In this document: positions 1-9,558 of the stretch, piece by piece | How positions within the stretch are numbered: the stretch's first letter is position 1 | Layout of the letters: every line of letters starts with the position of its first letter | Assembly: GCF_014652795.1 (NCBI RefSeq) | Contig: NZ_BMZM01000001.1 | Coordinates: 310,001-374,000, forward strand | DNA: 64,000 nt | From: Kushneria pakistanensis | GTDB lineage: Bacteria; Pseudomonadota; Gammaproteobacteria; Pseudomonadales; Halomonadaceae | Direction: 5' to 3' | The notes under the pieces: model-generated | Seen by the model: the letters and a program-made list of their open reading frames with translations, nothing else | Told to the model about the DNA's origin: nothing | Database searches by the model: none | Program-made: the position numbers and the translations under genes

Positions 1-3000
1 CGACCATCTTCGACTACTTCAACAAGGGGAGCCAAACCGGCAGAGTTTGCTTGCAACCGCACATTAACCCAACGCGTCCAGTCGGAGAGATAGTCCTTGC
101 TGTTCAGAATATCTTCGAGGTGATGGGCGAGCTCAGACAGTGGAAGTTGTTTTGGGTCCGATTGTGAGATCTGTGCGAAATCTCTGGCACACTCCTCCCA
201 AGCTGATCGCTTTTGCAAAAATAACGTGATCGCATTGCGCAGATCACCCGGCATACGCTGCGCTAGGCTCTGCCTGGATGCCTCCCAGCGGTTTTGATCC
301 GAGACGGCCGGTGCGAGGGCATTCAGTGTTGCCACCAAGCTGCTTGCCTGCGCTATCCAGTCCATCAGTCGATCGGGATCTGTTTCCACGCCCGTGACCA
401 CAGGGCATGGCAGTAATGCATTTTCCTTGATCTCATCCTGGATACGCCTGGCGTCGCTCATTGCGGCAATGTCCTGATCAGGGTTTGCCTGACCACTCTC
501 GGCGTAGGTCTGTAGGAGTTTACGGACCGAAGACTTCGCGAGGATGGAGAACGGCCACATCTTCGTTTGGGCAAGCCGCCAATTCGCGTCCATTTGATCG
601 AGAGGAATCATATCAAGACGGTCCATTGGATAGCGTGCCGAAGCGCGACTTACGGCGTCGTTGTATTTGCCAAGCAGGTCGCACAGGGCCTGTGCCTGGC
701 TCTGCATTTCACCAATGTTGCGTGACAGGGACCAGCTCACGTCTTCGCCGGTTGCGGGTATTTCGGCAACCTGTAGCAAAGTCTCAATTTCTTCCGAGGA
801 ACCAGCTCCATCCCAACCCAGCCCAGATTGACGGGCAAGGGTGTTCGCGGCATCGAATAGCTCCCGCGTCACCGAGGCCAGTGCAGTGGTCCGCTTGAGG
901 AGCTCGGCCTGCCAGCCGAAGGACCAGTCACTTGCTTGAATAAGCGGAAACGTTTTCCGCTCCGCGATGATTTCATTGCATCGCCCCAGTGCTTCGGCCA
1001 ACTTCTTCAATCGCGCATAGCTGTCTGCGTCATGAGCATCCTTGTTGGCGAAAAAGAGGCTGAACGGCTGTGCTTCACCAGATGCTTCTCCAATGGCCTC
1101 AAAGACACTGAAACCCTGAGTTCCTTTCTTATGGAGGGCGGCGACATAAGTGTTCAGTTGATCGCGGGTGATGGAAAGATCGTCGGTAACCTTTATCCAT
1201 TCAGCCTCGGAGCCTCGTGTCGCACGCTCCCAACTGCGCCCGAGTTGCGACAGTACTGATTTGCGATCAGCCTTGTTGGAGTGCAGTTCCAGTACCGCAT
1301 CCCCTAGTCCGTGTGCTGCTAGGCGACGATGGACCACGTCCAGCGCCGCAGATTTCTCGGCGACAAAAAGAACCGTTTTCTGAACTGCAAGACATTGCGA
1401 AATAATGTTCGCAATGGTCTGGCTTTTGCCCGTGCCCGGCGGACCAATCAGTACGAAATCATGCCCTTCCTCGGCCGCCAAAACCGCTGCAAGCTGGGAA
1501 GAATCTGCTGGCAGAGGGGTGAAAAGATCACGAGGAGCAAGACGTCGGTCGACATCTGCAGCATCGGGGAGCCCCGGGCTTCCCTCTGCAAGAAAAGGTT
1601 CGGACGGATTGTCGACCAGATGCCTTACAAGAGCACTTTCGCGCAAGCTATCGGTGCGTTCGACCAGATCTTTCCACATCAGAAATTTGGAAAATGAAAA
1701 GGTTGCAAGTGCAACATCCTCAACAACCTCGAAACCTGCAACATCACGAACCTTTCGTCGCATAATTTCGAAGATTCGAGGCAGATCGAAGCCACTACCA
1801 TCACGTGGCAATTCATCTTCCAGTTCTGGCACCGTGAGATCGAAGTCTCTCTTGAGAAACTCTAAAAGAGTGGTATTAAAGCGAACATCATCTTCGTGAT
1901 TTTCAATGATGAACTCGGATTGCGCGGACTTGCGGGAGATTTTTACGGGAACAAGAAGAAGTGGCGCACGATAGCTTTGGGTGTCGCCTTCCGATTTTTT
2001 CCAGCGCAGAAACCCGGCGGCGAGGAAAAGAGTATTGGTTCCGCCTTCTTGCATATCGCTTTTGGCACGCCGGTGTAGCTCCAGAAGCCGTAGTTCGGTT
2101 TCCTTGCGGGTCAGATTGACTGCCATTTGGCCCTTGGCGAAAGCGTCTTTTGCAACTTCCTCTAAAAGCTTCGGTTCCTCCTTTGTTAGCAGGTCTCTCT
2201 TTCCAACCGGATCTTCGTCCTTCAGTGCCAGCGCACGGAACTTCTTGCCGTCCGCAAGCTGATCTTCCAGCGATGACACATCCGAACAAAAGAATGGCAG
2301 CGTCTGCTTACTATCCTTGAAATTCAATAATCGGTTGCGCAACGAAAGATCCAGCAACTTTCTTTGCCAACGTGAAATCCGATCTGTAGGCGTTGTCGGT
2401 TCTTCTTCGATCAGGTCTTCGGGGAGCAGCCCCCGAGCAAGTGGTTTTGGAAGCGCTGCCGGGCTCGCCGGTATATCTGCTAGTTGCGTTTCTGGTTCGT
2501 TACGATGGCTGGCAAGGGGACGTACCCGTGCTGCACGGGCCCGACGAATGTCTACGGCCATGGTGAAACTGTGTTCATTGCGCTCTGAAGTAAGCTCACG
2601 CGCGCTATCCACTGCTTCTTCGAATCCAATGCTGGGTCGTTTTGTAAGCAGAGTGGTTTCCATACTTACAAACTCCCGGGCATCAAGCGCTTTGCGAACG
2701 GTCATAACGTCCGGTTCGCTTATGGTCCCGAAGTCTCTTTCGGTCAGCCACACCCCTGTCCAAGCATGCCCTTCACAAAACAGAATGGCTGGATTCAGTC
2801 CTGCCGCCTCAAAACAGGCCGCCAAAAAGAGCGCACTGTCGAGACAGGTTGCAAGTCCTTCGGAACGGATGCGTCCCGGATCGCGAATCTTCTGTCCGTG
2901 CAGCTCGAAACTGGCTGGGGGTACGGCATAGGTTAAACCCAGGCCTGTCGCGGCAGACCAGATGGATCCTGCCAGCATCCACGAGCGCGACGGATCTTTG

Positions 3001-3527
3001 GACTGGTATCCATCCATGCTGCCGTTCTGCCCCGTCGCCTCAAGAAGCCGTCCCGCTTCCTTTAGTATTCCGGCAACGACCGTATCGTTGGGAGAGACGA
3101 AGGCTGCCAAAAGATGTGCCATCTCACCAACGCCGCCCCACTCATCGCGTGCAAGCATCTCTATCTGACGACTCTCGGATATCATCTCGACATCGCCCTG
3201 CCGCACTAAAAGCGTTAGCTCACCTCTCTCAGCTTCGTTGAGGCCACCCAGAAGAGCCGTGTCCAGAGGGGTTTCCAGATCATGTAGCTCTTGCTGCTCG
3301 CCTGATGGCAGTCGGTCCAGCTTCCATGTTTTGGGGCGTAACAAGCCTGGCTTGCAAGTCAGTTCGACGGTGAGGTTCTCCAGCGGTTTATCCGTCTGGT
3401 TCTCCAAAACGATCTTTCTGATTACTGAAACACCATTCTGGGAGGAAGCGAAATTCACTTTTTCCGCAGTGATCAAAGTCAGCAAGAGCGACTTCTGGGC
3501 ATCCTCATCAACTGTCTTGAAAGGCAT
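1..3527 (-). CDS. DUF4011-type SF1 helicase, N-terminal 1175 residues (truncated by window edge)
   Basis: An uninterrupted minus-strand frame runs from an ATG at 3527 off the left edge. AGGG lies seven bases before the ATG and an in-frame TAA just upstream, so the start is firm. Residues about 10-100 look like a beta-rich Ig-type domain. Around 217-265 there is a transglutaminase-like pattern: Cys228 in TCLDSA, His254 in GHAW, Asp265. DUF4011 begins near 384 (RWQRKLLDLSLRNRLLNF). Walker A GPPGTGKS is at 695-702, followed by the SF1 motif Ia region (VLFVAEKSAALDVV). The remaining helicase motifs, and any Vsr-like nuclease and DUF3320 domain, would lie outside the window. Known of the family: DUF4011-helicase-Vsr-DUF3320 fusions have been reported as antiphage defence proteins. 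A defence role here is inference. No partner gene is visible on the right. Confidence 0.85.
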   Translation of the reverse strand, partial: MPFKTVDEDAQKSLLLTLITAEKVNFASSQNGVSVIRKIVLENQTDKPLENLTVELTCKPGLLRPKTWKLDRLPSGEQQELHDLETPLDTALLGGLNEAERGELTLLVRQGDVEMISESRQIEMLARDEWGGVGEMAHLLAAFVSPNDTVVAGILKEAGRLLEATGQNGSMDGYQSKDPSRSWMLAGSIWSAATGLGLTYAVPPASFELHGQKIRDPGRIRSEGLATCLDSALFLAACFEAAGLNPAILFCEGHAWTGVWLTERDFGTISEPDVMTVRKALDAREFVSMETTLLTKRPSIGFEEAVDSARELTSERNEHSFTMAVDIRRARAARVRPLASHRNEPETQLADIPASPAALPKPLARGLLPEDLIEEEPTTPTDRISRWQRKLLDLSLRNRLLNFKDSKQTLPFFCSDVSSLEDQLADGKKFRALALKDEDPVGKRDLLTKEEPKLLEEVAKDAFAKGQMAVNLTRKETELRLLELHRRAKSDMQEGGTNTLFLAAGFLRWKKSEGDTQSYRAPLLLVPVKISRKSAQSEFIIENHEDDVRFNTTLLEFLKRDFDLTVPELEDELPRDGSGFDLPRIFEIMRRKVRDVAGFEVVEDVALATFSFSKFLMWKDLVERTDSLRESALVRHLVDNPSEPFLAEGSPGLPDAADVDRRLAPRDLFTPLPADSSQLAAVLAAEEGHDFVLIGPPGTGKSQTIANIISQCLAVQKTVLFVAEKSAALDVVHRRLAAHGLGDAVLELHSNKADRKSVLSQLGRSWERATRGSEAEWIKVTDDLSITRDQLNTYVAALHKKGTQGFSVFEAIGEASGEAQPFSLFFANKDAHDADSYARLKKLAEALGRCNEIIAERKTFPLIQASDWSFGWQAELLKRTTALASVTRELFDAANTLARQSGLGWDGAGSSEEIETLLQVAEIPATGEDVSWSLSRNIGEMQSQAQALCDLLGKYNDAVSRASARYPMDRLDMIPLDQMDANWRLAQTKMWPFSILAKSSVRKLLQTYAESGQANPDQDIAAMSDARRIQDEIKENALLPCPVVTGVETDPDRLMDWIAQASSLVATLNALAPAVSDQNRWEASRQSLAQRMPGDLRNAITLFLQKRSAWEECARDFAQISQSDPKQLPLSELAHHLEDILNSKDYLSDWTRWVNVRLQANSAGLAPLVEVVEDG

Positions 3528-3917: not shown

Positions 3918-4412
3918 TCAGAAAGCGCCTTCGATCCCTTCCAAGCGCTTCTTCATCTGGAAATTATCCAGCGCCTGCCCCCGCCGCTCTACCTGCCTTG
4001 CCCGAGTGACCACAAACCCCCGCGTCTCAAAAAAGGGCAGGGCAGTCAGGCTGGCATCGGTGGTCAGGCGCGTCATCCCGCGTTGCCGGGCGGCCTGTTC
4101 CACCATGTCCAGTAGCGCACTCGCCACGCCACAGCGTTGATAATCCGGGCTGACAAAGAGCCTGTCGAGATGGCCTTCATTTGTGAGATCAGTAAAACCC
4201 GCCGGCACGTCATCCAGCATCGCGATCCACATGCGCCGTTGCGCATTCACCGCCGCCCAGGTCGGTAACGCGATGCCATCGATCCATGCCTCAATTTGTG
4301 CTGGGGTGTAGTCCCTTGAGGCTATCTCACGCACGGCGCGCTGAAACAGGGCAAGCGTTATCTCGTCATCATCAAGGGTGCAGGGGCGAATGTTCAGGGC
4401 GCTTGTCGACAT
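3918..4412 (-). CDS. GNAT N-acetyltransferase, YafP-like
   Basis: A 164-residue single-domain GNAT protein. The N-terminus (IRPCTLDD...LFQRAVREIASRDYTPAQIEAW) has the layout of E. coli YafP. The acetyl-CoA loop is QRCGVASALL at about 115-124, after the strand LDRLFVSPDY. The C-terminal part carries the family pattern TDASLTALPFFETRGF. The acceptor substrate is unknown; YafP itself is linked to the DNA-damage response and nitroaromatic metabolism, which cannot be assumed here. It is closely similar to the protein at 8858-9340, so the two are paralogues. It is probably monocistronic: the terminator at 4503-4536 separates it from the upstream methyltransferase gene. Confidence 0.85.
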   Translation of the reverse strand: MSTSALNIRPCTLDDDEITLALFQRAVREIASRDYTPAQIEAWIDGIALPTWAAVNAQRRMWIAMLDDVPAGFTDLTNEGHLDRLFVSPDYQRCGVASALLDMVEQAARQRGMTRLTTDASLTALPFFETRGFVVTRARQVERRGQALDNFQMKKRLEGIEGAF

Positions 4413-8857: not shown

Positions 8858-9340
8858 TCAATAGCCTTCAAGCGCTTTCTCCATCCAAAAATTCCTCAGC
8901 ACCTGACCGCGTCGTTTCATTGCCTGCGCCGTCACGACGTCAAACCCACGCGCCTTGAAAAAGGGCAGAGCGGTCACACTGGCCTCGGTGGTTATACGCT
9001 TGATCCCGCGTTGTTGCGCAGTCTGTTCCGCCATGGCCAACAGCGTACTCGCCACGCCGCAGCGCTGGTAATCCGGGCGGACAAACAGCATATCGAGATG
9101 CCCCTTGTCCGTTAGGCTGGCAAACCCTGCCGGGGTGTCATTCGCCATCGCGATCCATGTGGACTGGCGTTCAAGCATCGCCGCCCAGGTAGTCCGATCC
9201 ATGCCGTCGGCCCACGCCTCAAGCTGCGCCGGGGTGTAATCCCTGGAAGCCACCTCAAATACGGCGCGCTGAAAAATAGTCAGCGTGCTGTCGACGTCCC
9301 GTGGGGTATAGTCGCGTCGTCCTGAAGCGCCGATCGGCAC
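8858..9340 (-). CDS. GNAT N-acetyltransferase, second YafP-like copy
   Basis: 160 residues if started at GTG 9340, which is preceded by AGGAGG (9349-9354) at eight-base spacing. An ATG start at 9391 in the same frame would add 17 residues that do not match the family. The domain order equals that of the protein at 3918-4412: SRDYTPAQLEAW, acetyl-CoA loop QRCGVASTLL, then TEASVTALPFFKARGF. The two are clear paralogues. The substrate is unknown. It is transcribed away from the MscS-type gene at 9559, sharing a divergent intergenic region. Confidence 0.83.
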   Translation of the reverse strand: MPIGASGRRDYTPRDVDSTLTIFQRAVFEVASRDYTPAQLEAWADGMDRTTWAAMLERQSTWIAMANDTPAGFASLTDKGHLDMLFVRPDYQRCGVASTLLAMAEQTAQQRGIKRITTEASVTALPFFKARGFDVVTAQAMKRRGQVLRNFWMEKALEGY

Positions 9341-9558
9341 GAGACATCCCTCCTGAACATTATCTTTCCGCCCCCGCGGAGAGGTTTTCATAACCCTCTG
9401 ATACTGCGACAGCCCGGTAACGGTCGGCCCAGGTTTTCTGGTGTCGGGCCGATAGGGCCTGAATCAGGTTTTGACGCGTCACGTATGCACGATGCTGCCA
9501 GCGTACAACGCCCCGGCAGAAACTTTCATGGATGATTCACGCACGCGGTAACACAAAA

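Follow-up and report, generated by a model that had tools for sequence, protein, structure and literature searches.

At the left edge of the 64,000-nucleotide stretch of Kushneria pakistanensis DNA analysed here (the window, G000:C1:310001-374000) lies a gene that by sequence belongs to the ProA family over its full length, and is hence a known, widespread kind of defence gene. It occupies window positions 1..3527 on the minus strand, with its ATG start at 3527..3525, as the single long frame that the sequence-only reading had described (3527..3 and onward beyond the left edge, to G000:C1:307672). The complete gene (G000:C1:307672-313527) encodes 1951 aa with no internal stops; the window holds codons 1-1175, its first 60%, so that ~40% lies to the left rather than the two thirds previously supposed. 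The protein scores 2093.1 bits, against a cut-off of 1500, with the NCBIfam equivalog model NF058533 ('anti-phage protein ProA', antiphage_ProA), in an alignment of residues 25-1930 to the whole profile (positions 1-1903 of 1903). PADLOC model PDC-S37 matches residues 382-1944 with 1212 bits, and Hhe (NCBIfam NF042953, PADLOC PDLC02194) reaches 793.7 bits, below its cut-off of 2000. The nearest named genomes with relatives belong to Kushneria. The anti-phage activity of this predicted defence protein rests on the NCBI family name, for which no primary description was found in the literature searched; a tie between ProA and the DefenseFinder system 'Prometheus' would be a guess, and we make no claim of one.

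The domain order is beta-sandwich, transglutaminase-like, DUF4011, SF1 helicase, Vsr-like nuclease (MTES_1575) and DUF3320, and the predicted active-site motifs are intact in all three enzymatic parts. DUF4011 (PF13195; Pfam 7.9e-47, 159.6 bits) spans residues 390-558 (window 1854..2360, minus strand; G000:C1:311854-312360); the domain had been recognized from the letters, but with its start at residue 384. The Walker A of SF1 helicase motif I, GPPGTGKS (residues 695-702; 1422..1445, minus strand), likewise placed at 695 beforehand, is invariant in 27 homologues, as is DEAS (1312), while QGDERD (1512) is nearly so. Pfam recognizes the helicase in pieces (AAA_11, AAA_12), and by sequence the enzyme is of the SMUBP-2/Dna2 type. 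One of the checks proposed with the sequence-only reading, extension of the sequence beyond the left edge of the window, yields an intact SF1 helicase, the Vsr-like nuclease (REase_MTES_1575, residues 1613-1710) and DUF3320 (residues 1805-1852). In the nuclease, D1640, E1657, D1659 and H1664 are invariant in the 27 homologues, and W1691 is invariant or nearly so.

The other proposed check, structure prediction and fold comparison of the N-terminal region, points to a transglutaminase-like fold, through matches that are individually weak. The AlphaFold2 model of residues 1-385 (pLDDT 84.7) contains an Ig-like beta-sandwich at residues ~14-125 (3153..3488, minus strand; pLDDT ~90, mostly strands) followed by a catalytic domain at residues 126-340 (2508..3152, minus strand), which was also modelled by itself (mean pLDDT 95.6, pTM 0.93). 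Searched alone against the PDB with Foldseek, the latter matches PNGase, Rad4/XPC, a putative Parabacteroides protease, TglA, PeiP, menin and CPR-C4. The best of these solved structures has an E-value of 4.9e-3, none falls below E 0.001, and TM does not exceed 0.40; we nevertheless assign residues 126-340 to the transglutaminase-like fold because nearly all the top matches converge on one superfamily, not because of any single score. The domain is probably a cysteine peptidase. No Pfam model, including any transglutaminase model, reaches the N-terminal 385 residues; isolated weak matches appear in single homologues (DUF553, 0.0088; Transglut_core, 0.18), and a sequence search of the PDB with an N-terminal profile returned no matches. 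With the 1-385 model, Foldseek matches mostly beta-sandwich proteins. The best match of this search, Transglutaminase 2 (E 2.8e-4, ~119 columns), disappears when the catalytic domain is searched alone; it probably came via the beta-sandwich, and we set it aside as evidence for the catalytic fold.

We aligned the N-terminal domain in sets of 26 sequences and of 45 sequences spanning the Pseudomonadota, with identity down to ~37%. Cys228 (ATCLD; codon 2844..2846, minus strand), the presumed nucleophile, and His254 (GHAW; codon 2766..2768, minus strand) stand where they had been noted before, and both are invariant in all 45. In the model, Cys228 opens the helix 228-241 and His254 opens the strand 254-260; because of this placement, together with the invariance of both residues, we regard the pair as more than a chance resemblance. 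The acid that had been read with them, Asp265 (codon 2733..2735, minus strand), is rejected as the catalytic acid on conservation: it sits in a modelled loop, and the 45 homologues have D in only 25 cases, E in 10, S in three, A in two, and G, H, T, Q or C in the rest. The third residue of the predicted triad is instead likely to be Glu290 (ETT; codon 2658..2660, minus strand), which is present in 45/45 and directly follows the modelled strand 286-289. Gln212 (GQK), Thr292 and Asp326 are also kept in every aligned sequence. Against a Cys228-His254-Glu290 triad, a glutamate is less usual than an aspartate at the third catalytic position, and against an active hydrolase, the same fold serves as an inactive scaffold in several relatives (Rad4/XPC, menin).

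The transglutaminase-like domain is an optional part of the family. The full ProA form scores over the cut-off in 11 of 275 genomes of the host's family, and several genomes of the same family carry a form of ~1600 aa that starts at about profile position 345 and does not include the domain; one such relative scores 1438.7, just under the ProA cut-off. Six aligned relatives of ~1600 aa lack residues 1-385 and keep the helicase and nuclease, with no separate neighbouring gene supplying the absent domain within the flanks examined. DUF3320 is absent from three aligned Halomonadaceae copies, and other copies show the same profile range. Because relatives without one or the other exist, we regard DUF4011-helicase-nuclease as the core, with optional ends. 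Mean pairwise identity is 62% in the transglutaminase-like domain, similar to DUF4011, compared with 42% in the helicase insert (791-1295) and 27% in the linker at 1713-1800; the variable parts are thus this insert and the C-terminal parts. Conservation of the domain alongside variability elsewhere would therefore fit a conserved target, with recognition residing in other parts of the protein.

The gene is also, by sequence, a mosaic, and its ancestry is one of horizontal movement and recombination. Identity with a sister Kushneria copy is 97.7% in the transglutaminase-like domain and 85.8% in the DUF4011 segment (window 1854-2360), which is nearer to a Rhodobacteraceae copy (92.9%). Outside Kushneria, the first set of relatives retrieved is headed by Rhodobacteraceae proteins of 67-76% identity, from a different class.

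The ProA gene ends ~85 bases from the convergent guaA, and comparison of gene content indicates that the guaA 3' end is a variable defence hotspot in Kushneria-like genomes. The region downstream of guaA varies among ten genomes of the genus (G119-G127, corresponding to L050-L058, among them): ProA is found there in two, and a broken ProA lies ~10 kb off in a third, whereas other genomes contain a type I restriction-modification (RM) system with a PrrC-like gene (G125), a dGTPase (G126), a PDC-S33 gene with a RelA/SpoT domain (G123) or a tyrosine recombinase, that is, an integrase (G119). A decayed second guaA tail ~0.9 kb downstream in G121 is a probable mark of an old integration, and genomic islands such as GIsul2 are known to integrate at the guaA 3' end (PMC9376610). 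This context and the family match bear out the suggestion made from the letters that this is a defence gene. GC content is 48-57% across the ProA gene and 58-64% on most flanks. A search for attachment repeats revealed no second copy of the guaA 3' tail next to ProA, and a mobile element therefore could not be bounded at the locus. In Kushneria avicenniae (L014; L051 in G120), a break near residue 800-840 leaves ProA in two frames, ~10 kb from guaA, and this decayed copy indicates that the gene is dispensable; the ProA frame in L005 is interrupted too. Elsewhere in the window lie two paralogous GNAT acetyltransferase genes, 4.4 kb apart (3918-4412 and 8858-9391, both on the minus strand), and a member of the same family occurs, in differing positions, in the region downstream of guaA in several congeners.

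Of 398 Pseudomonadota genomes sampled, 28 (~7%) carry the transglutaminase-like domain. ProA copies adjoin TniQ/TnsB transposition genes in four loci (L004, L009, L013, L015) and type I RM-like genes, identified by eye from translations and not by family search, in two (L093, L101); on plasmids, 66 records span at least 80% of the protein. In six of the 37 loci with flanks, an SbcD/Mre11-like phosphoesterase and an SbcC/Rad50-like ATPase are encoded near ProA (L101:13166-16959 (-), L092:15904-18561 (+) and L006:15858-19649 (-); also L012, L016 and L017), and in three of these six the pair directly adjoins it. Locus L101 has an apparent operon SbcD-SbcC-ProA; in L092, SbcD starts 3 bases past ProA, and the SbcC-like match falls into two parts on either side of IS21 genes. 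None of the PADLOC system models matches the SbcCD-like pair well. In two loci (L004:15850-21540, L013:11777-17467 (+)), a 1896-aa protein that joins a DpdF/PsyrT-like DEAD helicase to a UvrD/GajB-like one (as typed in L004) is encoded on the same strand, its frame overlapping the end of ProA within a TniQ-bearing region; it is possibly a partner of ProA or a separate defence gene. The transglutaminase-like domain is matched in part at G662:C1:4167700-4168092 and G425:C14:88267-88899, within frames (538 and 413 aa) that are too short to hold the helicase and may be free-standing relatives. A gut record labelled 'Bacteriophage sp.' (MT836269.1:10326-11270) encodes the N-terminal domain at 33% identity and could be a mislabelled bacterial fragment.

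We consider it reasonably probable that the protein is a single-protein anti-phage helicase-nuclease in which the transglutaminase-like Cys228-His254-Glu290 domain acts as a second effector or regulator, and not as a sensor of phage proteins. The DUF4011/helicase/nuclease core would engage foreign or abnormal phage DNA and move along it with ATP, and the Vsr-like nuclease would cut, with DUF3320 and the variable helicase insert (791-1295) aiding recognition. With the helicase engaged, the transglutaminase-like domain, as an optional effector or regulator, would cut a conserved host or self protein; such cleavage may be a suicidal fallback, as opposed to a means of sensing fast-changing phage proteins. 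More tentatively, and with low confidence, the domain could have C-H-E peptidase activity, triggered by the helicase on phage DNA, and cleave one conserved host protein, working with the SbcCD-like pair in some lineages. Within the same family, it could conversely be catalytically idle, a Rad4/XPC-like scaffold for binding DNA or a partner, leaving the protein to act only as a helicase-nuclease. The presence of Rad4/XPC and menin among the structural matches is consistent with such a scaffold, as is the persistence of the ~1600-aa relatives without the domain, yet a scaffold needs no invariant Cys, His and Glu, and these three are kept in 45/45 sequences down to ~37% identity; we therefore think this unlikely.

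The sequence-only reading had been right in placing a transglutaminase-like domain beside the helicase, as the fold model and the conserved Cys and His indicate; the sensing role that it offered is not favoured. A domain that recognises or cleaves a phage protein, and thereby switches on the helicase-nuclease, could well be N-terminal and absent from some relatives, as this one is, since it could then set specificity. It would also be expected to vary, yet few parts of the protein are better conserved than this domain (mean pairwise identity 62%; 97.7% with the sister copy), and we judge a sensor to be quite improbable. Least credible is a DNA-repair or housekeeping helicase that lies near guaA by chance. 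The SMUBP-2/Dna2-type helicase would suit such a role, SbcCD-like repair genes adjoin some copies, and a DUF4011 gene belongs to the core genes of P. aeruginosa, where it flanks the defence hotspot cDHS1 (PMC10250203). Against this stand the patchy distribution (11 of 275 genomes of the family have the full form), the broken copy in a sister species, the plasmid and transposon-associated copies and the close relatives in a different class, which make a housekeeping function very hard to credit.

Protease-nuclease fusions in bacterial immunity raise the question of whether DNA sensing is coupled to protein cleavage; were the domain an active C-H-E peptidase, ProA would couple a DNA-sensing protease arm with a restriction-like nuclease in one protein. 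What this analysis adds is a corrected triad, a hotspot at guaA in the genus, a domain that is optional yet conserved and the recurrent SbcCD-like neighbour pair. Glu290 and this pair are small leads, the former giving experimenters a residue to mutate in place of Asp265. In guaA we have a further housekeeping gene that flanks a defence hotspot.

The Kushneria gene had been put forward as the best candidate in the window for an unusual system, but it matches ProA at the equivalog level, with the same domain order over the whole length of NF058533, and we found nothing that sets this copy apart. The fusion architecture was itself published in 2013, when giant proteins with HEPN, a transglutaminase-like peptidase, an SF1 helicase, a Vsr DNase and wHTH/DUF3320 were described (Anantharaman et al., PMC3710099). 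These were proposed to act without modification genes, with HEPN as a suicidal RNase, and their transglutaminase domain was suggested to cleave protein as a further line of defence (PMC3710099). Like them, the Kushneria protein has a transglutaminase-like domain, an SF1 helicase, an MTES_1575 nuclease and DUF3320; unlike them, it has no HEPN, as judged from Pfam, and residues 14-125 model as a beta-sandwich. Hhe has DUF4011, the SF1 helicase and a Vsr-like nuclease in common with it, and the best-matching stretch covers part of the Hhe profile only. The match to PDC-S37, a candidate single-gene defence system, begins at residue 382; that model is thus without the transglutaminase-like domain, and the ~1600-aa relatives represent this short form. 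Within the transglutaminase-like superfamily (PNGase, Rad4/XPC, TglA, PeiP, CPR-C4), the predicted domain shares the arrangement of a Cys at the start of a helix, a His on the next strand and an acid after the following strand, and differs in that its presumed third residue is Glu, not Asp.
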